Assembly (NCBI RefSeq): GCF_014252955.1
Contig: NZ_JACMIA010000001.1
Location: 1,240,001-1,304,000 of the forward strand
DNA length: 64,000 bases
Direction: 5' to 3'
Source: Stappia sp. 28M-7
GTDB taxonomy: Bacteria > Pseudomonadota > Alphaproteobacteria > Rhizobiales > Stappiaceae
Shown in pieces: positions 43,108-57,863 of this stretch (within the stretch, counting starts at the first letter, position 1; each line of letters begins with the position of its first letter). The notes below the pieces were generated by a model, which was not told where the DNA came from, did no database searches, and saw nothing but the letters and a program-made list of their open reading frames with translations. Position numbers and translations under genes: made by a program.

Positions 43108-44661
43108 TCAGTGGGACGAGGGGAGCCGGAAGCCGCCGATCAGGCGGTCGACGGCGGCATTCACGTAGAAGCCGTTGGCGAAGTGGACCCGCAGCCCGGC
43201 GGTCGCCGGGTGATGCGCCCAGTGCGGGAACAGCGCCTGTGCGACGGCAACACCGCCGAAGGAGGCGAGCGCCAGGGCGATCAGCGCCCATTCCAGCGGG
43301 CCGGCCTGGGGCGGGGCGGGCAGCGCGCCGCCGACCACCAGCCCGGCCAGCACGTGGAAGCCGAAATAGCCGATGGCGGCCGCGACCGAGGCCTTGGCGG
43401 TCTTGCGGGTGAGGGCGGCGGGGGCGGCGTCGGCCAGACCCTGCGCCACCAGATAGGCGACGCCGAAGATCAGGATCGCGCCGAGCGCCAGCGCCTGTGC
43501 AGACTTTTCCAGCGGCAGCAGCGAGAAGGCACCGGCAACGGCCGCATAAAGAGCGAGGGCGAGCAGGAAGGCGCGCGCCACCGCGGCAAGGCCTGGCGCG
43601 GCGACGGGGCCGGGCCGCCGCGTTGCCTGCACGGCGTGCACCGCCGTGCCGGAGGAGAGGAAGGCGTGTGCCTTGTAGAGCGAGTGGGCAAGGATGTGCA
43701 GCAGGGCGAGCGGCCACAGGCCGAGGCCGCATTGCAGCAGCATGAAGCCCATCTGCGCGACCGTCGACCAGGCGAGCGCCGTCTTCACCGCGCTCTGGGT
43801 CAGCATGACCAGCGCGCCGAACAGGGCCGAGAAACCGCCGAGCATGACCAGCAGCGTCATCGCCGCCGGGCTTGCCTGCACCGGCTCGGCAAGGCGGATG
43901 AGCAGCAGGCCGCCGGCATTGATGATGCCCGCATGCAGCAGCGCCGAGACCGGGGTGGGGGCTTCCATCACCTCGGTCAGCCAGCCGTGCAGGGGAAAGG
44001 CCGCCGTCTTCAGCAGCGCGGCGAGCACGACCAGCAACACGGCGATGTCGGCGGCAAGCGGCATGTCGCCGGCCCGTGCCGCATCGCCGATCCCAGCGAG
44101 CGACAGCGTGCCGAAGGCGGCCCAGAAGCCGAGCGCGGCAAGCAGCAGCGCAGCGTCGCCGGCGGTCCAGGCGAGGGTGAACTTGGCCGCGGCCCGCCGG
44201 GCCTGTGGCCGCTCGCGGTAAAACAGCAGCAACTGCCGCAGCAGCACACCGACGAGGACGAAGCTGAGGATCAGGACCGGCAGGGTGGCGGCCTGTACCA
44301 GCATGAGGACGGCGGCGACGGCGGCGAGCAGCAGGCCGTGGAAGGCGCCCTCCCGCGCCTCGCCGTCGAGATAGCTGCGCGAGAAGCGCACCACCACCCA
44401 GCCGACGAAGGCGACCAGAACCGACATGACCGCCGACACCGTGTCGAGGGTGAGCGCCAGGGCAAAGGCGCCGCTGCCGACGGCGAGCGTTGCCGGGCCG
44501 CCGATGGCCAGATGGAGCGCGCCGGCAAGGGCAAGCGCGAGGGAGAGCAGCGCGGCGCCCTCGGCGAGCACCGGCAATGCGCCCGGTCGGCGACCGGGGC
44601 GGGCCAGGGCGCAGGCGGCAATGAGCAGAAGCGGCAGGGGGGCGAGCGCCGTGGGGAACAT
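43108..44661 (-). CDS. dabB: DabB-type proton/cation-conducting membrane subunit (NuoL-like)
   Basis: A 517-residue polytopic membrane protein of the proton-conducting transporter family (complex I NuoL/MrpA-like). The core helices contain the expected FPLHGWLTEVMEAPTPVSAL and LLHAGIINAGGLLLIRL motifs and a lysine/glutamate membrane path. It is much shorter than NuoL, as expected for DabB. The start at 44661 has GGAG seven bases upstream; an 18-codon longer frame lacks one. It should supply cation flow to drive DabA. The pair is the first two genes leftward of a divergent LysR gene. Confidence 0.92.
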   Translation of the reverse strand: MFPTALAPLPLLLIAACALARPGRRPGALPVLAEGAALLSLALALAGALHLAIGGPATLAVGSGAFALALTLDTVSAVMSVLVAFVGWVVVRFSRSYLDGEAREGAFHGLLLAAVAAVLMLVQAATLPVLILSFVLVGVLLRQLLLFYRERPQARRAAAKFTLAWTAGDAALLLAALGFWAAFGTLSLAGIGDAARAGDMPLAADIAVLLVVLAALLKTAAFPLHGWLTEVMEAPTPVSALLHAGIINAGGLLLIRLAEPVQASPAAMTLLVMLGGFSALFGALVMLTQSAVKTALAWSTVAQMGFMLLQCGLGLWPLALLHILAHSLYKAHAFLSSGTAVHAVQATRRPGPVAAPGLAAVARAFLLALALYAAVAGAFSLLPLEKSAQALALGAILIFGVAYLVAQGLADAAPAALTRKTAKASVAAAIGYFGFHVLAGLVVGGALPAPPQAGPLEWALIALALASFGGVAVAQALFPHWAHHPATAGLRVHFANGFYVNAAVDRLIGGFRLPSSH

Positions 44662-44742
44662 GGGGAATCTCCGCAAGTGAAGTGCGCGCCGGAGATATCG
44701 CTTGCCAATATTCAAGAAAATTACATATTTAAGCGGAAATCA

Positions 44743-44776: not shown

Positions 44777-45691
44777 ATGCCGCCGCTCAACCTCCATCAT
44801 CTTCGCCTGTTCAGTGCCGTCGCCGAGGACGGGACGCTGACCGGAGCGGCGCGCCGGCTCAACCTGTCGGCCTCTGCCCTGTCGGCGCAGGTGAAAGCGC
44901 TGGAAGGATCGCTGGGGCACGACCTCTTCGAGAGGCGCGGGCGCGGGCTGGTGCTGACCGAGGCGGGGCGCATCGCCCTCGACCATGCGCAGGCGATCTT
45001 CCGCACCGCAGAAGACCTGTCGGCGACGCTGAAAGGCGGCGGGCAGAAGCCGCGCGCCCTGCGGGTCGGCGCGCTGAGCACCCTGTCGCGCAACCTGCAG
45101 ATCCAGTTCCTGCTGCCGGTCATCGGCAAGCCGGATGTGGACGTGGTGGTGCGCTCGGGCAGCCAGAAGGAACTGCTCGCCGGGCTGGAATCGCTGGCGC
45201 TGGACGTGGTGCTGACCAACGTGGCGCCGGCGCGCGACGAGGCCCGCCGGTATCTGGTTCACCGCGTTGCCGAACAGGCGGCCGGTCTGATCGGAACGCC
45301 GGAGCGGGCGGGGCAGGGGCGTCCGCTGGTGGAGCTGCTGGCGCGCGAGCCCCTGGTTCTGCCGACCCGCGAGACGGCGATCCGCTCCGGCTTCGACGTG
45401 CTGGCCGCGCGCCTCGGCGTGGTCCCGCGCATCGCGGCCGAAGTCGACGACATGACGATGATCCGCCTGCTGGCCCGCGAAGACGCGGGACTTGCGGTCA
45501 TTCCGCCGATTGTCGTGCGGGACGAACTGGCAAACGGAATGCTGGTGGAGGCCAGCCCCTTGCCCGGCATCACCGAGGTCTTCCTGGCGGTGACGGTGGA
45601 GCGCCGGTTCCCCAATCCGCTGCTGGCTGATCTCCTGTTCCGCACACCGGACGGTGTTCCGGCAAGGTCCGGGGACGGGGCGACAACATGA
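44777..45691 (+). CDS. LysR family regulator divergent from dabAB
   Basis: A 304-residue LysR protein. The winged helix (about 3-62) holds LHHLRLFSAVAEDGTLTGAA and LNLSASALSAQVKALEGSLG. The effector domain starts near residue 92. The sequence has the compact look of the NhaR/CbbR neighbourhood of the family; regulators of this kind next to dab genes in other bacteria respond to CO2 status. AAAGGGATC precedes the ATG. The perfect palindrome upstream is a likely binding site. The effector is unknown. Confidence 0.9.
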   Translation: MPPLNLHHLRLFSAVAEDGTLTGAARRLNLSASALSAQVKALEGSLGHDLFERRGRGLVLTEAGRIALDHAQAIFRTAEDLSATLKGGGQKPRALRVGALSTLSRNLQIQFLLPVIGKPDVDVVVRSGSQKELLAGLESLALDVVLTNVAPARDEARRYLVHRVAEQAAGLIGTPERAGQGRPLVELLAREPLVLPTRETAIRSGFDVLAARLGVVPRIAAEVDDMTMIRLLAREDAGLAVIPPIVVRDELANGMLVEASPLPGITEVFLAVTVERRFPNPLLADLLFRTPDGVPARSGDGATT

Positions 45692-45849
45692 TCGGCGTGC
45701 AAACGCGCTAGACGCGAAAGACAATCCCTGAAAACGCGCATGGGTTGAAATGTCTGCCCGCCTTTTGGGCAGGCATTGCCTACCCGCTTTTTCGACGGCT
45801 TTGAAGTTTAGAAAGCTCATTCTCCAGTGGACTTGGATTTCCATTTTTG

Positions 45850-45865
45850 TAGGATGAATATCCTA
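45850..45865. promoter_or_regulatory. Palindrome upstream of the Lrp gene
   Basis: TAGGAT-GAAT-ATCCTA is a perfect inverted repeat with 6-bp arms, 28 bases before the Lrp start codon. AsnC/Lrp proteins commonly bind such AT-rich sites in front of their own gene. The surrounding 150 bases are strikingly AT-rich for this genome. Confidence 0.58.
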
Positions 45866-45892
45866 ACAAAAATTCCAGAGGTAGAATGTGTG

Positions 45893-46369
45893 ATGCAAAT
45901 TGATGAGTTTGATAGGAAAATACTTTCTGTAATTCAAGATGATGCTAGCCTATCTATAGCTCAGGTTTCTGAGAAGGTAGGTCTCTCGACAACGCCGTGT
46001 TGGCGTCGCCTCCAGAAGCTCGAGCGAGAGGGGTATATCGACGGCCGCGTAACGCTTTTGAATCAAAGCAGGATCGGCCTCGAGCTCACGGTTTTCGTGA
46101 TGATACGGACCAGCCAGCATAACACCGCATGGCTGGAGAAGTTCAACAACGTCGTGAGTTTATTCCCGGAAATCGTGGAAGTGAACCGACTGGCGGGCGA
46201 GTATGACTATCTCTTGAAGGTAATCACCAAGAGCAATTCGTCCTACGACGCCTTCTACAAGAAGTTCATCAATCTCATCGAGCTCAATGATGTCACATCC
46301 TGTTTCTCAATGGAACAAATCAAGCGAAGTACCCGACTACCACTCGACGCTGTCGATGGCGGACGCTGA
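45893..46369 (+). CDS. Lrp/AsnC family transcriptional regulator
   Basis: A 158-residue regulator. The N-terminal helix-turn-helix is IDEFDRKILSVIQDDASLSI, VSEKVGLSTTPCWRRLQKLE and EGYIDGRVTLL; the C-terminal RAM ligand domain has NRLAGEYDYLLKVI and FSMEQIK. It has the usual length. ATG 45893 is chosen, though GTG 45890 is nearly as good given AGAGG upstream. The first 200 bases of the gene have much lower GC than its neighbours, suggesting separate acquisition. It overlaps the PLP-enzyme gene and probably controls the operon to 55215, perhaps sensing a sulfur amino acid. Confidence 0.92.
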   Translation: MQIDEFDRKILSVIQDDASLSIAQVSEKVGLSTTPCWRRLQKLEREGYIDGRVTLLNQSRIGLELTVFVMIRTSQHNTAWLEKFNNVVSLFPEIVEVNRLAGEYDYLLKVITKSNSSYDAFYKKFINLIELNDVTSCFSMEQIKRSTRLPLDAVDGGR

Positions 46370-48095
46370 CGCGCGCATCGCGCGGATCCGCGCCGGCGTC
46401 ATCGGTGAGGGGCGGGCGATCGAAACGCCGTTCGGCGTGCGCCCGCTCGTCTATGCGGACTACGTGGCCTCCGGGCGCGGGCTGTCCTTCATCGAAGACC
46501 TGATCCGCGACCGCATCCTGCCCGACTACGGCAACACCCACACCGAAACCTCGTATACCGGCCGGCAGACGACGGTGCTGCGCGAAGCCGCCCGCGAGAC
46601 GATCCGCAAGGCGGTCGGTGCCGACGCGCGCCATGCGGTGATCTTCACAGGCTCCGGCGCCACCTCCGGCGTCAACAAGCTGGTGCGCGCCCTGCAGCTG
46701 CAGGGCCGTCTGCCGCGACGCGCAACGGCGGCCGAGACGCCCGAGAGCGAGCTGCCGGTGGTCTTCGTCGGCCCCTACGAACACCATTCCAACGATCTGC
46801 CCTGGCGCGAGACCGGCGCCCGCATCCGTCGCATTCCGTTGAATGCGGCCGGCGGGATCTGCCTCGACACGCTGGCGAGCGAGCTTGCCGCCGTCGGCGA
46901 GGGCGTGCCGCGCATCGGTGTGTTTTCGGCTGCCTCCAACGTCACCGGCGTCAAGAGCGATGTGCGGGCGATTGCGAAGCTGCTGCATGCGCATGATGCG
47001 CTGTTCTTCTGCGACTATGCGGCCGGCGCCCCCTACATGCCGATCTGCATTTCCGGAACTGCCGAGGGCGCGGGCGACCATATTGACGCGCTGTTCCTGT
47101 CGCCGCACAAGTTCGTCGGCGGGCCGGGCGCGTCCGGCCTCCTGATCTGCGACAAGGCGCTGTTCGAGGGCATCGAGCCGACCGCCACCGGCGGCGGCAC
47201 GGTCAGCTATGTGACCGCGGAAGGGCATTGCTACGTCTCCAGCGTCGAGCGGCGCGAGGAAGCGGGCACGCCCAACATCGTCGGCGACATCAAGGCCGGC
47301 CTTGCGCTGGAACTGAAGGACCGGGTCGGCGCGCACGAAATCGAGCGCCGCGAGGCGGCGATGGTGGTCCGCGCCATGCGCAACTGGGCGCAGGATCCGA
47401 ACATCGAGCTGCTGGGCCCGCTTGAGGCCGAGCGCATCGGCGTCTTCGCGCTGAACATCCGCAGCGGCACCAAGAAGCTGCATTACGGCCTCGTCGTCGC
47501 CCTGCTGAACGATTTGTTCGGCATCCAGGCGCGCGGCGGCTGCTCCTGCGCCGGGCCCTACGGCCATGCGCTGCTGGGGATCGGCGACGACGATGCACTG
47601 CGTCACCAGCAGGAAGTGCGCGGCGGGCAGAGCGTACTGCGTCCGGGCTGGGTGCGTCTCGGCTTCAACTACTTCTTCGACGAGCGCACCACCGACTATA
47701 TCATCGAGGCGGTGCGTTTCGTCGCGGCCCATGGCGCAGCCTTCATGTCGCTGTACAAGGTCAACCCGCAGTCGGGCGTGTGGACGATGAACGGGGCTGA
47801 GCGTCCCAAGGCTCGGCCGGCAACGCTGCTCGAAGCGCTGGCTCCCGATGCTGCATCGCCTGTGGAAATGGGGGCCGAGGTGCCGGACTTCGAAACCTGC
47901 CTTGCAACGGCGCACCGGCTGGCGGACGAGCAGGAAGCAGCGCTCGCAGGCCTTGCAAGCGAGCCGTGCGGGGACTGCGGCGAGGCCGACAGCCTGCGCT
48001 GGTTCTGGCGGCCCGAGGAGCTGCCGCTTCTTCACAGCCAGTTGATCGCCGGGGCGAGAGCTTCTATCCACAAACCCCCATCACGGGTCTCCTGA
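46356..48095 (+). CDS. Class V aminotransferase-fold PLP enzyme (cysteine desulfurase-like)
   Basis: A 579-residue PLP-dependent enzyme. The cofactor lysine is K252 in LFLSPHKFVGGPG, and YEHHSNDLPWRE and FCDYAAGAPY line the PLP pocket. RGGCSCAGPYGH (C396, C398) sits where cysteine desulfurases carry the catalytic cysteine loop. A C-terminal extension of about 110 residues, with EPCGDCGEADSLRWFW, is beyond the usual family length. ATG 46356 overlaps the Lrp gene by 14 bases; ATG 46287 would extend it by 23 residues. Sulfur removal or C-S cleavage on a cysteine-like substrate is plausible in this operon. An epimerase role is an alternative. Confidence 0.85.
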   Translation: MADADARIARIRAGVIGEGRAIETPFGVRPLVYADYVASGRGLSFIEDLIRDRILPDYGNTHTETSYTGRQTTVLREAARETIRKAVGADARHAVIFTGSGATSGVNKLVRALQLQGRLPRRATAAETPESELPVVFVGPYEHHSNDLPWRETGARIRRIPLNAAGGICLDTLASELAAVGEGVPRIGVFSAASNVTGVKSDVRAIAKLLHAHDALFFCDYAAGAPYMPICISGTAEGAGDHIDALFLSPHKFVGGPGASGLLICDKALFEGIEPTATGGGTVSYVTAEGHCYVSSVERREEAGTPNIVGDIKAGLALELKDRVGAHEIERREAAMVVRAMRNWAQDPNIELLGPLEAERIGVFALNIRSGTKKLHYGLVVALLNDLFGIQARGGCSCAGPYGHALLGIGDDDALRHQQEVRGGQSVLRPGWVRLGFNYFFDERTTDYIIEAVRFVAAHGAAFMSLYKVNPQSGVWTMNGAERPKARPATLLEALAPDAASPVEMGAEVPDFETCLATAHRLADEQEAALAGLASEPCGDCGEADSLRWFWRPEELPLLHSQLIAGARASIHKPPSRVS

Positions 48096-48108
48096 ATACG
48101 GACCATCC

Positions 48109-49407
48109 ATGTTTTCCAGCAAACAGATCTCGGCATCCCTTTGGGCGGACACCGCCCCGTCGCGCCAGGCCGCACCGGCCGTTGCCGGTCGGCTCGATAC
48201 CGACGTTGCGGTTATCGGCGGGGGATTCTCGGGCCTTTCCACGGCGCTGCACCTGGCAAGGGCAGGGCACCAGGTCACGGTTCTGGAAGGCATGGAGGTC
48301 GGCTTCGGCGGATCGGGCCGCAACAACGGCCAGGTGATCCCGACCATGACGGCCGCCGAGCCGGACGCGATCGAGACGCGATTCGGCGATGCCGGCGAGC
48401 GGTTCGTCGCCCTGGTGCGCGACAGCGCTTCATACCTGTTCGACACCGTCCGCGAGGAAGGGATCGACTGCGAGGCCGAGCAGACGGGCTGGTTCCAGCC
48501 CGCGCACCGGGAAAGCCGGCTGAAGCTGAGCCGGGCCCGCGTCGACGCCTGGGCAAAGCGCGGCGCACCGGCCCGCCTGGTCGAGGCGGCCGAATGCGCC
48601 GAGCTGCTCGGCTCGGATCGCTGGTTCGGCGGCATGTACAACCCGACCGGCGGCCATATCAATCCGCTGGCACTGGCGCGCGGCCTGGCAAGCGCCTGCG
48701 AGGCGAAGGGCGTCGCGATCCGCGAGAAAAGCCCGGTCGAGGCGGTGGAACGCCGCGACGGCCGCTGGCACCTGCGCACGCCGACCGGAGAGGTCGTCGC
48801 CCGCGCAGTGATGCTGGCCAGCAACGCCTATACCGGTTTCCTGTCCTCTGAGCTGGCGCCGAAGGTGGCGCGCTCCGTCGTGCCGGTCCTGTCCTGGCAG
48901 ATGGCGACGCGTCCGCTCACCGATGACCAGCGCAAGGTGGTGGTGCCGGGCCGTCAGGCGGTTTCCGACACCCATGGCGACCTGCATTTCTTCCGCTACG
49001 ACAAGCGGGGTCGCCTGGTGACCGGCGGCGCGCTGGCACTCGGTCACAACGGCCCGGATCGGCTGCGCGAGATCGTCGGCCGCCGCCTGCAGACGGCCTT
49101 CCCGGTGCTCGGCAAGCCGGAGTTCGACTTCGTGTGGAACGGCTATATCGGCATGACCGAGGACCGCTTCCCCTTCATCTGCCAGCTCGGCCCCGATTTC
49201 TGGTGCTGGGCCGGCTGCAACGGCCGCGGCGTCGCCCTTTCGGTGTCGCTCGGCCGGGAATTCGCAGCGGCGATCGCCGGCATGCCGGTCTCGCAGCTCG
49301 CCCTGCCGATGTCCGATCCCAAGCCAATCCCCATGCACGGTCTCGTCAAGACCTTCGCCCCGCCGGCCATGCTTCAGCTGTACCGGTGGCGCGACGGCCG
49401 CGACTGA
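48109..49407 (+). CDS. FAD-dependent oxidoreductase (DAO family)
   Basis: A 432-residue flavoenzyme. The FAD motif DVAVIGGGFSGLSTALHLAR starts near residue 31, with the ribose acid in VTVLEGME. GFGGSGRNNGQVIPTMT is typical of PuuB/DadA-like amine oxidoreductases. The C-terminal FAD segment is FWCWAGCNGRGVALSVSLG, and LSWQMATRPL precedes it. It follows the PLP-enzyme gene after 13 bases. It is expected to oxidise a C-N bond of an amino acid or imine-forming heterocycle, fitting a route through a thiazoline or thiazolidine. Confidence 0.9.
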   Translation: MFSSKQISASLWADTAPSRQAAPAVAGRLDTDVAVIGGGFSGLSTALHLARAGHQVTVLEGMEVGFGGSGRNNGQVIPTMTAAEPDAIETRFGDAGERFVALVRDSASYLFDTVREEGIDCEAEQTGWFQPAHRESRLKLSRARVDAWAKRGAPARLVEAAECAELLGSDRWFGGMYNPTGGHINPLALARGLASACEAKGVAIREKSPVEAVERRDGRWHLRTPTGEVVARAVMLASNAYTGFLSSELAPKVARSVVPVLSWQMATRPLTDDQRKVVVPGRQAVSDTHGDLHFFRYDKRGRLVTGGALALGHNGPDRLREIVGRRLQTAFPVLGKPEFDFVWNGYIGMTEDRFPFICQLGPDFWCWAGCNGRGVALSVSLGREFAAAIAGMPVSQLALPMSDPKPIPMHGLVKTFAPPAMLQLYRWRDGRD

Positions 49408-49442
49408 CCCAAGCAAAGACAAGCAAAAGGACGATGCCCCAT

Positions 49443-49952
49443 ATGACCCAGGAAACCACCAACGAGCCGGTCGTCACGCTCGACATGCTGAAGGCGGCCT
49501 TCGCCATGCGCGCCAAGGCCTATGCGCACATGTTCGACGTCCTGCGAGAGGCGTATGGCGCCGACCGCGCCGTCGAGCTGATCGCCGAGTCCACCCGTCG
49601 TCTCGGCCAGGACATGGGCAAGAAGTTCGCGCATCTGGGCCCCGACAACCTGCCGGGCCTGAAGGACGCCTTCATCGGCGGCATCCCGTGCTCGGCACAG
49701 ATGTTTGCGCCCGAGATCAAGAAGTGCGACGACGAGAGACTGGAAATCCAGTTCCACCGCTGTCCGCTGAAGGACACGTGGACGGAACAGGGCCGCAACG
49801 AGGAAGATCTCGAGCTGCTCTGCAAGGCTGCCGGCGCCATCGACGGTGGCCTGTTCACCGAGGCCGGGTTTACCTTCAAGGGCGAAACCTGGACAAAGGG
49901 CAAGACCGGTTGCTGCCTGCTGCGGGTAGAGCCGGGCGCAAGTGCAGGCTGA
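49443..49952 (+). CDS. L-2-amino-thiazoline-4-carboxylic acid hydrolase family protein (first copy)
   Basis: A 169-residue protein of the ATC hydrolase family. Recognisable segments are AFAMRAKAYAHMFDVLREA, VELIAESTRRLGQDMGKKFA, LEIQFHRCPLKDTW and the C-terminal KTGCCLLRVEP. Family members open the ring of L-ATC to give carbamoyl-cysteine in cysteine synthesis from the racemic thiazoline. ATG 49434 lies only two bases from AAAGGA, so ATG 49443 is preferred. The several conserved cysteines (residues near 78, 94, 107, 126 and 160) may bind metal or act in catalysis. Whether ATC itself is the substrate is open. Confidence 0.8.
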   Translation: MTQETTNEPVVTLDMLKAAFAMRAKAYAHMFDVLREAYGADRAVELIAESTRRLGQDMGKKFAHLGPDNLPGLKDAFIGGIPCSAQMFAPEIKKCDDERLEIQFHRCPLKDTWTEQGRNEEDLELLCKAAGAIDGGLFTEAGFTFKGETWTKGKTGCCLLRVEPGASAG

Positions 49953-50032
49953 GCTGACTGTCATCCCGGCTGCGGGGTGATCCCATCAAACAACAAACCA
50001 AAATCTCTTCCAGAAGACAGGAGAAGATCACT

Positions 50033-51157
50033 ATGACGATGTCTCGCAGGACCACTCTCGGGTTGCTCGCCGGCGTTGCCGGCATGCTCGCCGTTCCCTT
50101 CGGCGCGATGGCCGAAGGGCCGGTCTATCTCGGTTACCAGCTGCCGCTGACCGGCAACACCGCCCAGTACGGCCAGGACTTCAAGACGGCCGCCGAGATC
50201 GCCCTCAAGGACTTCAACGCCTCCGGCAAGCTGAAGGTGCCGGTGGAGATCATCTTCGAGGACTCCCGCTCCGACGCCAAGGAAGGCGTGGCCATCGCCC
50301 GCAAGTTCGTCGACGACAGCCGCATCGTCGCGGCGCTCGGCGACTTCACCTCCACCGTCTCGATGGCCGCTGCCCAGGTCTACAAGCGCGCCGAGATGGC
50401 CCAGCTGAGCCAGACCGCCTCGCACCCGGATTTCGCCAAGATCTCCGAGTGGCAGTTCCGCAACATCACCACCCAGGCCCAGGAAGGCGTCTACAACGCC
50501 GACTGGATGAACGAGCAGGGCCTGAAGAAGATCGCGGTGATCGCCGAGCAGACCGACTGGGGCCAGTCGGTGGTCAAGGACTTCGCCGAGAAGGTGAAGG
50601 CCAATGGCGGCGAGGTGGTCTTCACCGAGTTCTTCAACCGCGGCCTGCCGGACTTCCGTTCGATCATCACCAAGATCGAGCGCGCCAAGCCGGACGCGAT
50701 CTACACGGGCTTCTTCTATGAGGACGGCGCCCAGTTCCTGAAGCAGATGAAGCAGCTGAACGTCGAGACCCCGGTCTATTCGACCTCGGCCGCTTACAAC
50801 CAGAAGCTCGTCGAGCTGGCCGGTCCTGCCGCCGAAGGCCTGTTCCTGACGGTCACCTTCCTGCCCAACAGCGAGAACGAGAACGTCAAGACCTTCGTCG
50901 ACGAGTGGAAGGCCGCCCGCGACGGCGCCGAGCCCGGCCAGTTCCCGGCCCAGGCCTACGACGCGGTGAACATCATGCTCGAGGCCGTTGCCCGCGCCTA
51001 TCCGGACGTCTCGCGCCAGAACGTCCGCGACGAGCTGGCCAAGACCAAGGACTTCCCGGGCGTCACCGGTGTCACGTCCTTCGACGAGAACGGCGAGGCC
51101 CTGAAGCAGCTCACCAAGGCGACGGTGACCGACGGCCAGTTCGTCCCGCTCAAGTAA
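50033..51157 (+). CDS. ABC transporter substrate-binding protein (Liv/HAAT type)
   Basis: A 374-residue periplasmic binding protein with a twin-arginine-like signal (MSRRTTLGLLAGVAG) ending near AMAEG. The mature start VYLGYQLPLTGNTAQYG and EDSRSDAKEGVAIARKFVDD, ALGDFTSTVSMAAAQ are those of LivJ-type proteins. AGGAGA precedes the ATG by eight bases. It follows the first ATC-hydrolase gene after 80 bases, linking import to ring opening. A strong hairpin follows the stop. The ligand is unknown; an amino-acid-like heterocycle would fit. Confidence 0.92.
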   Translation: MTMSRRTTLGLLAGVAGMLAVPFGAMAEGPVYLGYQLPLTGNTAQYGQDFKTAAEIALKDFNASGKLKVPVEIIFEDSRSDAKEGVAIARKFVDDSRIVAALGDFTSTVSMAAAQVYKRAEMAQLSQTASHPDFAKISEWQFRNITTQAQEGVYNADWMNEQGLKKIAVIAEQTDWGQSVVKDFAEKVKANGGEVVFTEFFNRGLPDFRSIITKIERAKPDAIYTGFFYEDGAQFLKQMKQLNVETPVYSTSAAYNQKLVELAGPAAEGLFLTVTFLPNSENENVKTFVDEWKAARDGAEPGQFPAQAYDAVNIMLEAVARAYPDVSRQNVRDELAKTKDFPGVTGVTSFDENGEALKQLTKATVTDGQFVPLK

Positions 51158-51170
51158 CGTTCGCGCTTTT

Positions 51171-51201
51171 CCCTCTCCGGGCGCCCATGGCCCGGGGAGG
51201 G
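51171..51201 (+). promoter_or_regulatory. Intra-operon GC hairpin after the Liv-type binding-protein gene
   Basis: CCCTCTCCGGGC and GCCCGGGGAGGG pair over 12 positions with one mismatch around loop GCCCATG. It begins 14 bases after the binding-protein stop and lacks a following T-run. It probably protects or partly terminates the upstream mRNA. Confidence 0.68.
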
Positions 51202-51327
51202 AAGACGCAGCCGGGCTCCGCAGGCCTGCGCGTATCGGTGACCTGCCGCCGCCATCACCCGGACCCCGGGGGCGGGGAGCGTCACCCTTTCGCCTGGTCC
51301 CCGTGTTCCTAGCCAGGACAGACACCC

Positions 51328-52242
51328 GTGATCGATCCCTACTACCTCCAGCAGCTGACGATCGGCATATCGCTGGGCATGGTCTATGCCCTGATGGCCA
51401 TCGGTTTCACGCTGATCTTCGGCGTTCTCAACGTCGTCAACTTCGCCCATGGCGAGGTCTACACGATCGGCGCCTTCGCCGGCATCATGGCGATCGCCGC
51501 CTTCGGCCCGCCGTTCCTCGTCATCGTCTTCATCGTCCTGGCGGTCGGTGCGCTGGCGGGCTTCAGCCTGGAAAGGGTGGCGTTCAGACCATTCCGAAGA
51601 TTCTCGGACGAAGCCTCGCTGAAATCGCGGGCCATGCGCGAGGCGACGCTGATGTCTTCGCTGGCCATGTCGATCATCGCCCGCGAGGCCATGGAGCTGC
51701 TGTTCGGGTCCGAGTTCCAGACCATCGACATCAGCTACCTGATCAACAAGCCGATTTCGCTCGGCCCGGTCACCATCGTCAACGGCGACATCATCATCTT
51801 CGTGGTCTCGGTGCTGATGCTGGGCGGCCTGCAGTGGCTGCTGCGCTACAGCTCCATCGGCCTGTCGATCCGCGCGGTGTCGAACAATCCGCTGGGCGCG
51901 AAATATGTCGGCATCAACACCGACCGCACCATCGTGCTGACCTTCGTCATCGGCTCGATGATGGGCGCGCTCGCCGGCATTCTCGTCGGCCTCTACTACG
52001 GCGCGGTGTTCCCCTCGATGGGCTTCATCCCCGGCGTCAAGGCGTTCGTCGCCATGGTCATGGGCGGGTTGAGCTCGATTCCGGGAGCGGTGATCGCGGC
52101 GCTGGTGCTGGGCGTGGCGGAGAGCCTGTCGACGACCTTCGTTTCGTCGGTCTGGGCCGACATGGTCGCGTACATCTTCCTCATCGTCACCTTGGTGTTC
52201 TTCCCGCAGGGGCTCTTCGGAGCGAGGAGGGAACGTGTCTAA
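51328..52242 (+). CDS. Branched-chain amino acid-type ABC permease (LivH family)
   Basis: A 304-residue permease. The start region LTIGISLGMVYALMAIGFTL and GVLNVVNFAHGEVYTIGAFA are diagnostic. The coupling loop IRAVSNNPLGAKYVGIN is conserved. It begins at GTG 51328 behind AGGACAG and overlaps the next gene by 8 bases. It is the first membrane subunit of the transporter in the putative sulfur-heterocycle operon. Confidence 0.92.
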   Translation: MIDPYYLQQLTIGISLGMVYALMAIGFTLIFGVLNVVNFAHGEVYTIGAFAGIMAIAAFGPPFLVIVFIVLAVGALAGFSLERVAFRPFRRFSDEASLKSRAMREATLMSSLAMSIIAREAMELLFGSEFQTIDISYLINKPISLGPVTIVNGDIIIFVVSVLMLGGLQWLLRYSSIGLSIRAVSNNPLGAKYVGINTDRTIVLTFVIGSMMGALAGILVGLYYGAVFPSMGFIPGVKAFVAMVMGGLSSIPGAVIAALVLGVAESLSTTFVSSVWADMVAYIFLIVTLVFFPQGLFGARRERV

Positions 52243-53245
52243 GGACTTCATTCAGTCGGCGGGCCTGAAGCTCGCCATCCTGGCGGTGCTTTTCGTCGCC
52301 CTGCCGTTCCTGCTCGAATATCTCAGCAAGGGCTACATCTACCAGGTGGTCATGACCGCCCTGATCTTCTCGCTGCTGGCGGTGTCGCTGCAGCTGGTCA
52401 CGGGCATTGCCGGTCTTCTGCATCTGGGCCATGCCGCCTTCTACGGCGTCGGCGCCTATATCGCGGCGCTGGCCGGGGCCGACTACGGTATCGGCTTCAC
52501 CCTCGGCCTGCCGCTGGCGGGCCTGGGCGCGGCGGCCATCGCCTTCGTCGTCGCACTGCCGACCATGCGTCTCGTCAGCATCTACTTCGCCGTCGCCACG
52601 CTCGGCATCGGCCAGATGATCTTCCTCGTCCTGCAGAACTGGGTCGAGGTGACGAAGGGACCGAACGGCGTCAGCCTGAACTCCGAGATCGAACTGTTCG
52701 GCTATCCTGTCGAGAGCGAGCTGGGCATCTACTTCGTGGTCGCGACCATCGTCTGCATCTCGATCTGGGTCATCCACCGGCTGAGCCATTCCTACTACGG
52801 CAATGCCCTGCGCAGCCTGCGCGAGGACGACCAGTGCGCCGATGCGATGGGCATCAACACGGTGCGGCTGAAGATCGAGTCCTTCATGATCTCGTCCTTC
52901 TTCGCCGGCATCGCGGGCGCCCTGTGGGCCTACACCACGCGCTATATCTCGCCGGTGGACTTCGACTTCGCGGAATCGATCCTGATCCTCGCCATGGTCG
53001 TGGTCGGCGGGTTGGGCAGCATTCCCGGCGCCATCATCGGTGCCCTGCTCTTGATCCTGCTGCCCGAGGCGCTGCGCGACGTCGGCGACATGCGCAATGT
53101 CATCGTCGGCTTCGTGCTGTTCTTCTCGATCCTGTTCCTGCCCAAGGGACTGTTCGGGGAGGTGCCCTCGCTCAACTTCATCCGCCGTCAGTTCGGGTCC
53201 GCCTGGCAGGACAATCCCGACAAGCAGAAGGTGGGCTGGAAATGA
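52235..53245 (+). CDS. Branched-chain amino acid-type ABC permease (LivM family)
   Basis: A 336-residue permease. LVTGIAGLLHLGHAAFYGVG, PTMRLVSIYFAVATLGIGQM and ALRSLREDDQCADAMGIN identify it as LivM-like. The end, LPKGLFGEVPSLN, is typical. It starts at GTG 52235 inside the preceding gene and overlaps the following ATPase start. It is the channel partner of the LivH-type protein. Confidence 0.92.
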   Translation: MSKDFIQSAGLKLAILAVLFVALPFLLEYLSKGYIYQVVMTALIFSLLAVSLQLVTGIAGLLHLGHAAFYGVGAYIAALAGADYGIGFTLGLPLAGLGAAAIAFVVALPTMRLVSIYFAVATLGIGQMIFLVLQNWVEVTKGPNGVSLNSEIELFGYPVESELGIYFVVATIVCISIWVIHRLSHSYYGNALRSLREDDQCADAMGINTVRLKIESFMISSFFAGIAGALWAYTTRYISPVDFDFAESILILAMVVVGGLGSIPGAIIGALLLILLPEALRDVGDMRNVIVGFVLFFSILFLPKGLFGEVPSLNFIRRQFGSAWQDNPDKQKVGWK

Positions 53246-53997
53246 CCGCCATGCTTGAGGTGGACAACGTGTCCCGGCGCTTCGGCGGCCTCATGGCTGT
53301 CGACAGCGTCACCACCACCGTCGCGGAGCGGGAGCTCGTCGGCCTGATCGGTCCGAACGGCGCCGGCAAGACGACGCTGTTCAACCTGATCTCCGGCTTC
53401 ACCCCGGTCTCGTCGGGAGAGATCCGCTATCGCGGCGAGAAGATCAGCGGCCTCAAGCCGTCGGTCATCGCCTCGAAGGGCATCTCGCGCACGTTCCAGA
53501 ACCTGCGCGTGTTCCCGAACATGACCGTGTTCGACAACGTGTCCGTCGGCGCGGTCGGGGCCATCGGCCAGAGCCCGTGGCAGGCGATCGCCGGCGGGGC
53601 GAAGGGCTCGAAGCAGATCTCCGAGCGCAGCTGGGAGGCGCTGGAGAAGGTCCAGCTGACCCAGTATGCCAACGATCTTGCGGCCAACCTTGCCTATGGC
53701 AAGCGCAAGTATCTGGAGATCGCCCGCGCGCTGGCGATGAACCCGGACCTGCTGATCCTTGACGAACCGGCCGCGGGACTGAACGATTCCGAGACGGCGG
53801 AGCTGGCCTCCTTCATCAAGGACCTGCATTCCAGCGGCATCACCGTCATGCTCGTCGAGCACGACATGGGCCTCGTGATGAGCATTTGCGAGCGTATCGT
53901 CGTGCTGGCGTCGGGCAAGAAGATCGCCGATGCGGAACCGTCGGTCGTCCGGCAGAACCGCGAGGTGCTGGAAGCCTATCTGGGGGTGGACGAGTGA
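53242..53997 (+). CDS. ABC transporter ATP-binding protein (LivG family)
   Basis: A 251-residue ATPase. Walker A is GPNGAGKTT, the Q-loop RTFQNLRVFPNM, the signature LAYGKRKYLEIARALA, Walker B LLILDEPAAGLN and the switch histidine is in MLVEHDMGLVMSI. All are canonical, unlike the LivG-type protein at 10325-11065. It overlaps both neighbours by four bases. Confidence 0.92.
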   Translation: MTAMLEVDNVSRRFGGLMAVDSVTTTVAERELVGLIGPNGAGKTTLFNLISGFTPVSSGEIRYRGEKISGLKPSVIASKGISRTFQNLRVFPNMTVFDNVSVGAVGAIGQSPWQAIAGGAKGSKQISERSWEALEKVQLTQYANDLAANLAYGKRKYLEIARALAMNPDLLILDEPAAGLNDSETAELASFIKDLHSSGITVMLVEHDMGLVMSICERIVVLASGKKIADAEPSVVRQNREVLEAYLGVDE

Positions 53998-54704
53998 ACG
54001 TTCTCGAAATCGCAAACCTGTCCCTGCGGATCGGCGTCCAGGACATCCTGCACGACATCAGCCTGGACCTCCCCGAGAAGGGCATCTACGCCATTCTCGG
54101 CGCCAACGGTGTCGGCAAGACCAGCCTGATGCGCTGCATCTCCGGCATCTACCACCCGACCGGCGGCGAGATCCGCTACGAGGGCAAGAACATCGTCGGC
54201 CTGAAGAGCCACCAGATCGTCGATCTGGGCATTCTCCAGGCCCCCGAGGGGCGGCAGATCTTCTCCAACATGAGCGTGCTGGAGAACCTGACCATCGGCG
54301 GCGGGCCGCTGAAGACGGCCGAGCTGGACCGGGTGCTGGGGCTGTTCCCCAAGCTGAAGGAGCGGCTCAAGCAGGGCGCGGGCTCCCTGTCGGGCGGCGA
54401 GCAGCAGATGCTGTGCATCGGCCGTGCGCTGATGCGCCGGCCCAAGGTGCTGCTGCTCGACGAGCCCTCGCTCGGCCTTGCGCCGATGCTGGTGCGCTTC
54501 ATCTTCGACCTGGTGGAAGAGATCCGCGCGCAGGGCTACTCGATCCTGATCGTCGAGCAGAACGCCAAGGCGGCGCTGCGCATCGCCGACCGGGCCGCCG
54601 TCATCGAGGGCGGCAAGATCGTCATGGAAGGCTCCGCCAAGGAGCTGGCGAGTGACAGCCGCGTCGCCGATGCCTATCTGGGTGGGCATGTCGCGGCTCA
54701 CTGA
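53994..54704 (+). CDS. ABC transporter ATP-binding protein (LivF family)
   Basis: A 236-residue ATPase. Walker A is GANGVGKTS, the signature SLSGGEQQMLCIGRALM, Walker B LLLDEPSLGLAP and the LivF-type LIVEQNAKAAL replaces the switch histidine. It starts at GTG 53994, overlapping the livG-type stop as GTGA. It completes the five-part importer. The second ATC-hydrolase gene follows after 40 bases. Confidence 0.92.
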   Translation: MNVLEIANLSLRIGVQDILHDISLDLPEKGIYAILGANGVGKTSLMRCISGIYHPTGGEIRYEGKNIVGLKSHQIVDLGILQAPEGRQIFSNMSVLENLTIGGGPLKTAELDRVLGLFPKLKERLKQGAGSLSGGEQQMLCIGRALMRRPKVLLLDEPSLGLAPMLVRFIFDLVEEIRAQGYSILIVEQNAKAALRIADRAAVIEGGKIVMEGSAKELASDSRVADAYLGGHVAAH

Positions 54705-54744
54705 GCCGCGACATCGGGCACGACACACGAAAGAGGGATCCACG

Positions 54745-55215
54745 ATGACGCTGCCGATGATCGAGAAACGCCGGATCGAGGCCGCGGTCCTCAAGCACGT
54801 CTTCGATGTGCTGGTGGAGCGGCACGGGCGCGAGGAAGCGGAAAAGGTGATCGGCGAGGCCGTCTCCAACTCCGCCATCGCGCAGGGCAAGGAGTTCCGG
54901 GAGAAGGAGCCGCAGGAGCCCAACCTCGAGAACTTCGCCGACCTGCTGCCGCTGTGGCAGATGGACGACGCGCTGCAGATCGAGGTGCTGGAGAAGGGGC
55001 CGGACCGGCTCGACTTCAACGTCAAGCGCTGCCGCTATTCCGAGGTCTACAAGGAGATGGGGCTCGGCGATATCGGCCACCTGCTCTCCTGCAATCGCGA
55101 TGGCGACTTCTGCATCGGCTACAATCCGAAGATGGAGCTGACGCGCACCCAGACGATCATGAAGGGCGCGTCCCATTGCGACTTCCGCTACCGGCTGAAG
55201 CCGGCGGCCGAATAA
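54745..55215 (+). CDS. L-2-amino-thiazoline-4-carboxylic acid hydrolase family protein (second copy)
   Basis: A 156-residue protein. It reads as a clear member of the ATC hydrolase family: VFDVLVERHGREEAEKVIGE, LDFNVKRCRYSEVYKEMGLG, IGHLLSCNRDGDFCIGYNP and MKGASHCDFRYRLK. The start follows AGAGGGATC. It lacks the long middle of the first copy and differs in its cysteine pattern, so the two are diverged paralogues, possibly subunits or enzymes for successive steps. It is the last gene of the operon before a strong terminator. Confidence 0.88.
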   Translation: MTLPMIEKRRIEAAVLKHVFDVLVERHGREEAEKVIGEAVSNSAIAQGKEFREKEPQEPNLENFADLLPLWQMDDALQIEVLEKGPDRLDFNVKRCRYSEVYKEMGLGDIGHLLSCNRDGDFCIGYNPKMELTRTQTIMKGASHCDFRYRLKPAAE

Positions 55216-55243
55216 GCCTCCTCGCTTTCCCTTTGCATTTCGG

Positions 55244-55275
55244 CGGCGCGGCTCTCACGGGCCGCGCCGTTTTCT
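55244..55275 (+). terminator. Terminator of the Lrp-linked operon
   Basis: CGGCGCGGC and GCCGCGCCG form a perfect 9-bp stem with an 8-base loop, followed by TTTTCTTTCT. It lies 28 bases after the second ATC-hydrolase stop and overlaps the 3' end of the convergent EamA gene. Confidence 0.82.
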
Positions 55276-56190
55276 TTCTGTGAAGACGAGGCCGATACCG
55301 CAGGCAGCGATCAGCGCGGCGCCGACCAGCGTCAGCGGGCGCGGCGGCAGGTCGAACAGCACCAGATCGAACAGGGCGGCCCAGATGACCGCCGAATAGC
55401 GGGTGGCGGCGACCATGGTCGAATGGCGGGCCCGTGTCGCCGAGGCGATCAGCAGGTTGCTGAGGATGTAGAAGACGATCATCGCCGCGATGATGCCCGT
55501 CTCTCCCGCGACCAGCGGCCGCCAGTCGCCGACAACGCCCATGGCCAGCGCCAGGATCAGCGTCGCGACGCTGGCCGTGAAGGACAGCTCGAGGCTGGGC
55601 ACGTTGGAGGCGCGCCGGCTCGTCAGCATGTCGCGGGCGACGTAGAAGGCGGCTGAGCCGACAGCGGAGAGGGCGCCTTCCATGCTGCCGGCCAGCGCCG
55701 GGCCGGTGGCGATCAACGCGCCGGAAAACGCCAGCAGCAGCAGGATGCGCCCACGTGGCGACAGGGGCTCGCCCGCCAGCAGCCAGTTCATCGCCATGAC
55801 CCCGATGGGAATGGTCATCATCACCGTGGCGACGAAGCTGAGCGGGGCGAGGGTGAGCGCGTGCATCAAGCCGGCCGTCGCTATGGCCTCGAGCGCCGCA
55901 CGCGCCAGCACCACGCGCGGCGGCCAGCGCAGGCCGCGCCGGATCATCAGCGGCAGCAGGATGAAGATCGTGCCGACCGCCCGCAGCAGGATCAGCTGGC
56001 TGGTCGGCATCACCCCCAGCAGCTTGACGCAGGCATTGTTGATGTTGCCGGCACCGGTGGCCAGCAAGCCCTCGATCAGCGGCCGCCGGTCGCTAGGGGG
56101 CGGCGGCTGGCCCTGATCGGTCCCGTTCGGATCGGGTGCAGGCTGCCCGGATGTGGGGTGATCGCGCAATCGGCCGGCATCTGACGGCAT
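55255..56190 (-). CDS. EamA/DMT family transporter
   Basis: A 311-residue inner-membrane protein with about ten hydrophobic segments in two EamA repeats. Typical segments are LIEGLLATGAGNINNACVKL at the start, LTLAPLSFVATVMMTIPIGV mid-way and YSAVIWAALFDLVLFDLPPR in the second repeat. Family members export amino acids or other metabolites. ATG 56190 is used, although no good ribosome-binding site is visible; it starts 31 bases after dgoA. A longer in-frame start further upstream would run into dgoA. It may share the dgo transcript. Confidence 0.85.
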   Translation of the reverse strand: MPSDAGRLRDHPTSGQPAPDPNGTDQGQPPPPSDRRPLIEGLLATGAGNINNACVKLLGVMPTSQLILLRAVGTIFILLPLMIRRGLRWPPRVVLARAALEAIATAGLMHALTLAPLSFVATVMMTIPIGVMAMNWLLAGEPLSPRGRILLLLAFSGALIATGPALAGSMEGALSAVGSAAFYVARDMLTSRRASNVPSLELSFTASVATLILALAMGVVGDWRPLVAGETGIIAAMIVFYILSNLLIASATRARHSTMVAATRYSAVIWAALFDLVLFDLPPRPLTLVGAALIAACGIGLVFTERKRRGP

Positions 56191-56221: not shown

Positions 56222-56854
56222 TCAGCCGGCGGGGAAGGCGGTACGGGCGGCCGCGACCAGGCCGCGTGCCTTTTCCGCAAGCTGGTCGAGGGAGATGCCC
56301 GGCCGGTAAAGCGAGGAGCCGAGGCCGAAGCCGCTGGCGCCGGCCTGGCACCAGGGCGCCATCGTCGTGGTGTCGATGCCGCCGACGGGCAGCAGCAGCG
56401 CGTCCTTCGGCATGACGCTGCGCCAGGCCTTCAGCGCGCGGGGCTCCATCGCCTCGGCCGGGAAGAGCTTCAGCGCGTCAGCCCCCTGGCGCAGCGCGGC
56501 GAAGGCCTCCGACGGGGTGGCAACGCCCGGAAGCGTCGTGAGCCCGCTCGCCTGGGCTTCCGCTACCACGTCGGGAGCATAGTTCGGCGCGACCATCAGC
56601 CGGCCGCCAACATCGGCAAGCCGGCGGCACTGCTCAGGCTCAAGCACCGTTCCGGCGCCGATCAGCGCGCGTTCGCCGTGGGATTTCGCCAGCTTGCCGA
56701 TGCTGGCGAAGGGATCGGGCGAGTTGAGCGGAACCTCGATGATGCGGAAGCCGGCCTCGAACAGGACGTCGGCGACATCGGTGATTTCCGCCGGCGTGAC
56801 GCCGCGCAGGATGGCGACGAGCGGGCAGGCGGCGAGCGCTTCGCGCAAGGTCAT
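56222..56854 (-). CDS. dgoA: 2-dehydro-3-deoxy-6-phosphogalactonate aldolase
   Basis: A 210-residue class I aldolase of the KDPG/KHG family. The N-terminal CPLVAILRGV holds the conserved glutamate-neighbour region, LIGAGTVLEPEQC and MVAPNYAPDVV follow, and the Schiff-base lysine is K129 in DALKLFPAEAM. GGIDTTTMAPWCQAGASGFG binds phosphate. It splits KDPGal to pyruvate and glyceraldehyde 3-phosphate in the De Ley-Doudoroff pathway. The start overlaps the dgoK stop by four bases. Confidence 0.9.
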   Translation of the reverse strand: MTLREALAACPLVAILRGVTPAEITDVADVLFEAGFRIIEVPLNSPDPFASIGKLAKSHGERALIGAGTVLEPEQCRRLADVGGRLMVAPNYAPDVVAEAQASGLTTLPGVATPSEAFAALRQGADALKLFPAEAMEPRALKAWRSVMPKDALLLPVGGIDTTTMAPWCQAGASGFGLGSSLYRPGISLDQLAEKARGLVAAARTAFPAG

Positions 56855-57816
56855 GTCAGGTCTCCCATGGCCGCGGCGAGGATCTGCCGGGCGCCGTCGA
56901 TTGCGGCATGGTCGCTCCCCTCCACGACATCCAGTCCGAAATGGCGGGCGACGATGGCATAGCGGCGGTTGAGCCCGTCATTGCCGACGATGCCGATGCG
57001 ATTGCCCTTGCTGAACTCGCTTTTGGCGAAGAAGCCGCAATTGCGGGCCTGGCGGAACTCCTGCGCGATCAGGAGCCCCGAGACGTAGTCGCGAATTTCG
57101 CCAGGGGCAAGCTTGCCGGCGAGCATTCCGGTGCGTGCGGCAAAGACCAGCGAGAGCATGGCATCGCCCTCCGCGCCCTCGGGCGAGCCGTCAGCGATGC
57201 CGCGCTCGAAGGCGGCCATGTCCTCGCCCGTGCTTTCCGAGCCGGCGGCCGCGCGGGCAATGAAGGAATGTTGCGTCAGAAGAGCGAAGAACTCGCCGGT
57301 GACGAAGGTGCGGAAGCCCGAGATCCGTCCGCCGGCAACCCGCGCCCACTTGCTGTGGGTGCCGGGCAGCACGAGCGTTGCGTCCTTTTCCAGGCCGAAG
57401 CCGACGATCTGGGTCTCTTCGCCGCGCATCACATCGGGGAAGGGCGCGCGGGCCGGATCGTTGATGCCGGCGAGCAGGATGGCGCGCGAGCCGTTGGCGA
57501 GGGTCCGCGTGATCGTGCCTTTCGCGAGATCCTCGACCGAGCACGGGCAGGGGACATAGGGCACCTCGATCCAGCCGTTGCGGCTGGTGACCATGCCGAC
57601 CAGCACGATGTCGAGCGGACCTTCCGCCGCAAGCCACGGCGCGAGCAGGGCCAGCAGACGATCCTCGAAGGCGTGCTTTTCCACAAACTGGATGCCGTCG
57701 CCCGTCTCGATGCGGTCGCGCTGCGTGCCGTCGGCGGCAAGCAACACCGCGCGGAAGGAGGTGGTGCCCCAGTCGACCACGACATGCGGCGCATTGAGGG
57801 CGGAGGCTGAAGGCAT
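56851..57816 (-). CDS. dgoK: 2-dehydro-3-deoxygalactonokinase
   Basis: A 321-residue sugar-acid kinase. The N-terminal VVDWGTTSFRAVLLAADG is the phosphate-binding motif of the DgoK family. GMVTSRNGWIEVPYVPCP, LVLPGTHSKWA and GFRTFVTGEFFALL are further hallmarks. It phosphorylates KDGal with ATP to KDPGal. ATG 57816 has AAAGGA eight bases upstream; a 14-codon longer start is less likely. A promoter with TTGACA lies upstream. Confidence 0.92.
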   Translation of the reverse strand: MPSASALNAPHVVVDWGTTSFRAVLLAADGTQRDRIETGDGIQFVEKHAFEDRLLALLAPWLAAEGPLDIVLVGMVTSRNGWIEVPYVPCPCSVEDLAKGTITRTLANGSRAILLAGINDPARAPFPDVMRGEETQIVGFGLEKDATLVLPGTHSKWARVAGGRISGFRTFVTGEFFALLTQHSFIARAAAGSESTGEDMAAFERGIADGSPEGAEGDAMLSLVFAARTGMLAGKLAPGEIRDYVSGLLIAQEFRQARNCGFFAKSEFSKGNRIGIVGNDGLNRRYAIVARHFGLDVVEGSDHAAIDGARQILAAAMGDLT

Positions 57817-57863
57817 GAATCGGTCCTTTCGGGGAGCGGCGGTAGGGCGAGCATTCATGCTTG

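Follow-up and report, generated by a model that had tools for sequence, protein, structure and literature searches.

Thiazolidine-4-carboxylates are rings that form from cysteine and aldehydes, the simplest being thioproline, which arises from formaldehyde. The closest described routes are two. The Pseudomonas route from L-2-amino-thiazoline-4-carboxylate (L-ATC) uses a racemase, ATC hydrolase and an N- or S-carbamoylcysteine amidohydrolase. Excerpts of the published work state that ATC hydrolase cuts the thiazoline C-S bond (PMC5847659) and that N- and S-carbamoyl versions of the route are both described, together with an ATC racemase (PMC10821248). Thioproline itself reportedly yields N-formylcysteine in bacteria and mitochondria (PMC9814826) and is oxidised by ProC (PMC12899673), and L-thioproline is a minor substrate of sarcosine oxidase (PMC12582975), according to the accessible parts of these sources. 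Here, we compared these systems with an operon in a 64,000-nucleotide stretch of Stappia sp. 28M-7 (contig NZ_JACMIA010000001.1, positions 1,240,001 to 1,304,000; hereafter the window). The operon (45893-55215, + strand) comprises ten close-set genes in the order Lrp, pyridoxal phosphate (PLP) enzyme, DAO flavoenzyme, ATC1, binding protein, LivH, LivM, LivG, LivF and ATC2, with a hairpin after them.

We consider it somewhat better than an even chance that this operon serves the catabolism of thiazolidine-4-carboxylates, giving cysteine or its sulfur, and this is probably an undescribed pathway. The literature matches listed (titles and abstract openings, with subscription journals mostly uncovered) included no account of a gene cluster dedicated to thiazolidine-carboxylates. 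The proposal builds on gene content, linkage, clade structure, predicted folds and retained motifs, from which we infer every substrate, product and step order.

DAO-linked ATC2 proteins and their proposed deacylase

The first-pass annotation, made from the letters of the window, had described an Lrp-linked operon with a PLP enzyme, a DAO protein, two ATC-family proteins, a full Liv importer and a terminator, and the open reading frames, Pfam matches and a hairpin scan confirmed this. Its assignment of both small proteins to the ATC hydrolase family was also borne out: both passed the PF14196 cut-off of 28.1 bits, ATC2 strongly (135.7 bits) and ATC1 weakly (50.1 bits, 49434-49949). The linkage that it expected in other genomes was found as well, since ATC2 recurs there with DAO, PLP and Liv genes. 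The window's genome holds four PF14196 matches, three of them above the cut-off; the two outside the operon are a partial match at C2:22318-22515 (39.4 bits) and one at C1:2702730-2703134 (24.2 bits, below the cut-off).

To survey relatives, one genome per species was scanned with ATC2 and two plasmid relatives as queries; 84 relatives were confirmed and 80 loci kept. Neighbourhood genes were called with a simple home-made caller, which missed some, and presence counts were redone by tblastn. The results showed DAO in 45 of the 80 loci, PLP in 35, M20 aminoacylase in 34, dppA in 30, the Liv binding protein in 13 and ATC1 in 13. The DAO loci came from ten named families, Roseobacteraceae (18) and Paracoccaceae (10) foremost, with three loci lacking a named family. 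DAO shared the strand of ATC2 in 45 of 45 loci and lay directly upstream of it in 39; the six exceptions were L049 and five loci of Stappia/Hoeflea, in which the two genes are separated by ATC1 and the importer.

A tree of PF14196 proteins, in which L025, L057 and L082 are absent because they had no called ATC2, recovered a monophyletic ATC1 (support 100/100) and a DAO-linked ATC2 clade (support 100/99). DAO accompanied 44 of 46 rows in this clade against 1 of 32 outside, a linkage far beyond chance (Fisher p = 3e-18), although the p-value overstates independence, since near-identical rows, the window row and L011 among them, were counted singly. ATC2 of L011, from Stappia indica, is identical to the window ATC2 across 152 residues.

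The downstream partner also separated the two groups. Within 3 kb of ATC2, an N-carbamoylase was present in 0 of 43 DAO loci against 5 of 37 non-DAO loci, and an M20 aminoacylase in 32 of 43 against 1 of 37; this count used the home-made gene calls, where tblastn gives 45 DAO loci. By tblastn, M20 lay within 250 bases downstream of ATC2 in all 34 loci that have it. The usual neighbour of the DAO clade was a TIGR01891-type M20 amidohydrolase, and no row of the clade was linked to a carbamoylase; in L034, a carbamoylase-family gene lies about 8 kb from ATC2. Opening of a 2-amino-thiazoline would leave a carbamoyl group on cysteine, and opening of a thiazoline with hydrogen or carbon at C2 would leave an acyl group. 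The latter thiazoline is what an imino-acid oxidase acting on a thiazolidine would produce, so the replacement of carbamoylase by M20 is expected if C2 bears hydrogen or carbon instead of NH2. Taken together, the oxidase and this replacement point to oxidation of a thiazolidine-4-carboxylate, ring opening to an N-acylcysteine and deacylation.

The DAO protein is consistent with such a role through its resemblance to L-pipecolate oxidase, an enzyme that oxidises, of the two ring carbons next to the nitrogen, the one that does not carry the carboxylate. The L-pipecolate oxidase AmaA was its best NCBIfam model (264.8 bits, cut-off 600); the two share the DAO family, and the score below the cut-off indicates that the window flavoenzyme is not AmaA.

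In the route that we propose, the Liv importer would take up a thiazolidine amino acid, and the DAO flavoenzyme would oxidise the ring N-C2 bond to give delta2-thiazoline-4-carboxylate. ATC2 would hydrolyse the C2-S bond of this thiazoline to N-acyl-L-cysteine (N-formylcysteine from thioproline), and an M20 aminoacylase, encoded beside ATC2 in relatives and perhaps by a distant gene in the window's genome, would release cysteine. The SufS-like PLP enzyme could then convert cysteine to alanine and persulfide sulfur, and Lrp may sense an amino acid of the route. ATC1 would be a paralogue that goes with the Liv importer, and it may act as a second hydrolase on rings with a different substituent or stereochemistry. 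With the Pseudomonas L-ATC route, this scheme shares a PF14196 hydrolase, a proposed thiazoline opening to an N-substituted cysteine, amide cleavage and, in one variant, a racemase; it differs by the upstream DAO, M20 in place of carbamoylase in most relatives, the PLP enzyme and the Liv or Dpp importers. With thioproline oxidation by proline dehydrogenase or P5C (pyrroline-5-carboxylate) reductase, as excerpted from PMC9814826 and PMC12899673, it shares the proposed N-C2 oxidation followed by N-formylcysteine. Those reactions are activities of proline enzymes, whereas here we propose genes dedicated to the task, a hydrolase, a deacylase and an importer among them.

The operon could instead act on L-ATC or a near 2-amino-thiazoline, with ATC2 forming N-carbamoylcysteine, cysteine desulfuration following and DAO working on a side product. 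PF14196 takes its name from ATC hydrolase activity, and a racemase variant of the locus resembles the ATC racemase step. In this variant (L116:4531-14259, L117, L118 and L131), an Lrp-type gene is followed by an Asp/Glu/hydantoin racemase (identified by Pfam in L116, L117 and L131 and by BLAST in L118), then DAO, with Liv genes and ATC2 after it; ATC1 and M20 are present in L116-L118 and neither in L131. The racemase before DAO parallels that of the classical route, as far as the available text of PMC10821248 describes it, and this parallel counts for the thiazolidine proposal as well. However, L-ATC needs no oxidase, and the carbamoylase counts above and the DAO clade, which has no carbamoylase-linked row although one lies in its sister group, speak against this substrate, which we regard as decidedly unlikely. 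For the window operon, the classical ATC route was rejected on the missing adjacent carbamoylase and the extra oxidase.

The classical route fits other loci. On contigs of H. parainfluenzae and P. stutzeri (L078, L087), a PF14196 relative near 9965-10470 has similar neighbours in both genera, being flanked on one side by a single gene combining SBP_bac_3, BPD_transp_1 and ABC_tran and on the other by an M20 gene. The P. stutzeri M20 scores as a hydantoinase/carbamoylase, and that of H. parainfluenzae matches it by BLAST; the cluster is likely a classical ATC or related uptake cassette. Two actinobacterial PF14196 loci outside the DAO clade also have a carbamoylase-type gene, and they too fit the classical ATC route.

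Importers, the PLP enzyme and competing readings

The window importer is a full Liv/HAAT set of a binding protein, two permeases and two ATPases. ATC1 and the Liv binding protein were found in the same 13 scan loci, and in this layout ATC1 stands before the binding protein (Stappia, Hoeflea, Tropicimonas, Celeribacter, Cohaesibacter, Actibacterium). In a second layout, a Dpp-type importer is followed by PLP-DAO-ATC2-M20, with Lrp, VOC and SDR genes divergent; the VOC relative in the window's genome is just 25% identical. The Dpp importer was present in 29 DAO loci distinct from the Liv-type ones, and L057 has dppA without DAO. The importer is thus exchangeable, Liv or Dpp. A strict ATC1-Liv rule is contradicted by L130 and L131, which carry Liv genes and ATC2 with no called ATC1, and by L049, where ATC1 adjoins DAO and a different Liv set (36-40% identity) lies nearby. 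A fixed operon order was rejected, as the Stappia/Hoeflea order is unlike that of Rhodobacterales and Cohaesibacter.

These results bear on whether the operon simply imports branched-chain amino acids beside unrelated genes. The importer is of the Liv type, but the same enzymes accompany either importer, and the binding protein scored 138.6 bits against a cut-off of 477 in the branched-chain binding-protein model, a sequence score that argues against a canonical LivJ; its best solved relative is 3hut. Plain branched-chain uptake is therefore highly improbable, and we rejected it because the linkage is kept with two unrelated importers.

The solved structures nearest to the window PLP enzyme are those of SufS. 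Lys252, His143/144 and Cys398 did not vary among six relatives, the window enzyme being one of them, and they line up with SufS at its SHK, EHH and HCA stretches; the SHK lysine and HCA cysteine we take to be its PLP lysine and catalytic cysteine. The enzyme shares the fold class and the Lys/His/Cys motifs with SufS/CsdA, and it differs by a C-terminal extension of about 150 residues, a sufS NCBIfam score below the cut-off (139.4 against 475.1 bits) and a catabolic rather than an Fe-S context. The retained motifs favour the thiazolidine proposal, as do the published reactions of thioproline and of ATC hydrolase given at the outset. In 29 of the 35 PLP loci, the gene lay within 250 bases upstream of DAO. 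Across 297 genomes of the order, 79 had an ATC2 match (E <= 0.001), 41 a PLP match (E <= 1e-60) and 15 both, with the two within 20 kb in just 8 of these 15, indicating that PLP and ATC2 are also found apart; four of the 8 were the window's genome and its genus mates. Apparent stops occurred in the ATC2 rows G149, G239 and G273 of this search. At class level, an ATC2-type match at E 1e-20 was found in 19 of 190 genomes.

Many related modules and PLP cousins have an Lrp gene next to them. In L141:8258-17276, an Lrp gene is followed by a close PLP relative (56%); the cluster also has a GNAT acetyltransferase, a Tct-type transporter, a Lyase_1 protein and an M20 enzyme, and no ATC or DAO gene was labelled within 18 kb; this cluster is perhaps an N-acylcysteine route. 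In L145:5632-14271, a further Liv cluster is accompanied by a PLP enzyme (43%), a SIR2-family protein and a DAO of 34%, and no ATC gene was labelled. At the end of L125 (up to 10361), an Lrp-type gene, PLP (44%) and an ATC2 relative (53%) adjoin, with no DAO in 10.5 kb. Among PLP cousins outside the module, the metallo-beta-lactamase (MBL) gene of Aminobacter L010 scored 561.4 bits in the Blh sulfur transferase/dioxygenase model (cut-off 625), and an MBL-rhodanese protein lies near the cousin in Rhodococcus L007. In the window's genome, a 47% relative of this L010 protein is encoded at C3:58385; one stop interrupts the matched frame.

Several observations weigh against the thiazolidine proposal. 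Two members of the DAO clade (L018 and L022) have no DAO, and 11 of the 45 DAO loci have no M20. The carbamoylase contrast rests on five loci that do not form one clade, and one of them, L069, falls in the sister group of the DAO clade. By Pfam, neither an M20 nor a carbamoylcysteine amidohydrolase is among the ten operon genes of the window. An M20 at C1:4596300 in its genome is 61-62% identical to the Sagittula module enzyme and lies beside a TauE-type gene, with no other module gene labelled nearby. In a quick tree, this M20 and the genome's other, 45% copy both grouped towards the Roseobacter-type module enzymes, whereas those of the racemase variant fell on the opposite side, so the tree does not show module M20s as one clade. 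In the DNA around each locus (L054 has almost none upstream), the PLP gene was not found in 10 of 45 DAO loci, which led us to reject it as a core enzyme and indicates that sulfur release from cysteine is not obligatory; in one of these, Stappia L013, a TRAP transporter precedes DAO instead. Four further loci, those of the racemase variant, have the racemase in front of DAO. Sulfur-dioxygenase-like MBL neighbours were present in just 2 of 12 opened PLP-cousin loci outside the module and in none of the other ten, and a sulfur dioxygenase as the general PLP partner was not upheld. Desulfuration seems to be one among several ways for the route to end.

The predicted structures also bear on the role of ATC2. 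AlphaFold models of ATC2 and ATC1 (pLDDT 94.7 and 92.8) matched TRAPP Bet3 and the MopR/PoxR sensor folds in the PDB, with query-normalised TM scores of about 0.5-0.6 in the best rows, and this modelled fold makes a binding rather than a catalytic role for ATC2 possible, a further point against the proposal. The matches to MopR/PoxR agree with the relation published in PMC5847659, an excerpt of which describes a three-cysteine cluster common to the ATC hydrolase family and the V4R domains of PoxR and MopR. Cys96, Cys116 and Cys145 of ATC2 were invariant in 63 rows, window included, and Cys107, 127, 157 and 158 of ATC1 in 17 rows, with cysteine places matching those of ATC2. A zinc or thiol active site is a guess. 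Weak matches of ATC2 to acid-sensing ion channels in a sequence search of solved structures (E ~0.1) were dismissed as noise.

A sensor-like fold would suit an operon for cysteine or cystine uptake and degradation, in which the PF14196 proteins would be ligand-binding or regulatory partners and not hydrolases, and Lrp-PLP pairs with no surrounding ATC or DAO genes do exist (L008, L009, L010, L151, L152). Conversely, DAO-ATC2 pairs persist without PLP (L013, L021, L029, L030, L040, L071), M20 would be left without a role, and catalysis is published for a PF14196 member in the accessible part of PMC5847659, so that we hold this possibility to be quite unlikely. The substrate might also be an amino acid with another ring (oxazolidine, imidazolidine or six-membered S,N), giving an N-acyl non-cysteine amino acid. 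In favour of this, PLP is dispensable, being present in 35 of 45 DAO loci, and the module M20 also reaches 330.4 of 550 bits in the model of DoeB2, the deacetylase of the ectoine route. The PF14196 chemistry described in the excerpt of PMC5847659 concerns a thiazoline, however, and PLP retains its desulfurase motifs; another ring is unlikely in our view.

The thiazolidine proposal thus keeps the direction of the first-pass annotation, whose scheme of uptake, oxidation and opening of a thiazolidine or thiazoline ring, with release of its sulfur, remains the best fit, with the amendments that the importer is not fixed, PLP is not core and a deacylase step had been missed (M20 stands beside ATC2 in 34 of 45 DAO loci). 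Its remark that the ATC hydrolase route is not known to have a dedicated ABC importer appears not to hold in general, given the fused-importer loci of P. stutzeri and H. parainfluenzae.

Layout and transcription signals of the operon

Features of the Stappia operon in window coordinates
Feature	Coordinates	Strand	Basis and remarks
Lrp/AsnC-family regulator	45893..46369	+	PF13412/PF13404/PF01037; start ATG 45893 or GTG 45890
SufS-like class-V PLP enzyme, putative cysteine desulfurase/lyase	46356..48095	+	579 aa; PF00266 (Aminotran_5), 145.1 bits
DAO-family flavoenzyme, proposed thiazolidine-carboxylate oxidase	48109..49407	+	PF01266, 231.7 bits
ATC1, diverged PF14196 protein	49434..49952	+	50.1 bits; start 49434 or 49443
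Periplasmic amino-acid-type binding protein	50033..51157	+	PF13458 (Peripla_BP_6), 208.5 bits
LivH-type permease	51328..52242	+	PF02653 (BPD_transp_2); GTG start
LivM-type permease	52235..53245	+	PF02653 (BPD_transp_2); GTG start
LivG-type ATPase	53242..53997	+	PF00005 (ABC_tran); LivG model 254.1 bits, cut-off 362
LivF-type ATPase	53994..54704	+	PF00005 (ABC_tran); LivF model 216.9 bits, cut-off 441; GTG start
ATC2, PF14196 protein, proposed thiazoline-4-carboxylate hydrolase	54745..55215	+	135.7 bits
Intrinsic-terminator-like hairpin, then TTTTCTTT	55242..55271	+	13 pairs, 10 GC; T-rich tail

The Lrp and PLP genes overlap by 14 bases, and livH/M, livM/G and livG/F also overlap. A promoter scan gave one site, within the PLP gene, against 1.2 expected, so the suggestion of a single transcript comes from the spacing and the overlaps. 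The hairpin had the highest pair count among 10 terminator-scan matches in 45500-55400; shuffled sequence gave a mean of 5.8 matches, indicating that a match by itself is not rare. For the PLP enzyme, the ATG at 46356 is a likelier start than 46287, which falls well within the Lrp gene. ATC2 starts at about 54745, and PF14196 was scored over the 54652-55212 open reading frame. Upstream of the operon lie a Proton_antipo_M membrane protein (43108-44715, - strand) and a LysR-type regulator (44777-45691, + strand); downstream of the terminator is a KDPG/KHG-type aldolase and 2-keto-3-deoxy-galactonokinase pair (56222-57858, - strand).

Meaning of the oxidase-linked clade

The comparison offers a testable reassignment of the DAO-linked PF14196 clade and assembles orphan genes into a pathway whose chemistry has precedents, a proposed bacterial sink for cysteine-aldehyde adducts. 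With confidence just short of even, we suggest a widespread alphaproteobacterial pathway for environmental adducts of this kind, in which an oxidase, a thiazoline hydrolase, an N-acylcysteine deacylase and interchangeable importers would yield cysteine, sulfur and carboxylate. If this is true, DAO-linked PF14196 genes, currently annotated as ATC hydrolases, would be renamed, and a spontaneous trapping product of formaldehyde and other aldehydes would become usable cysteine, sulfur and carboxylate. Cysteine-aldehyde adducts would then count among the true constituents of the dissolved marine pool of sulfur and nitrogen.

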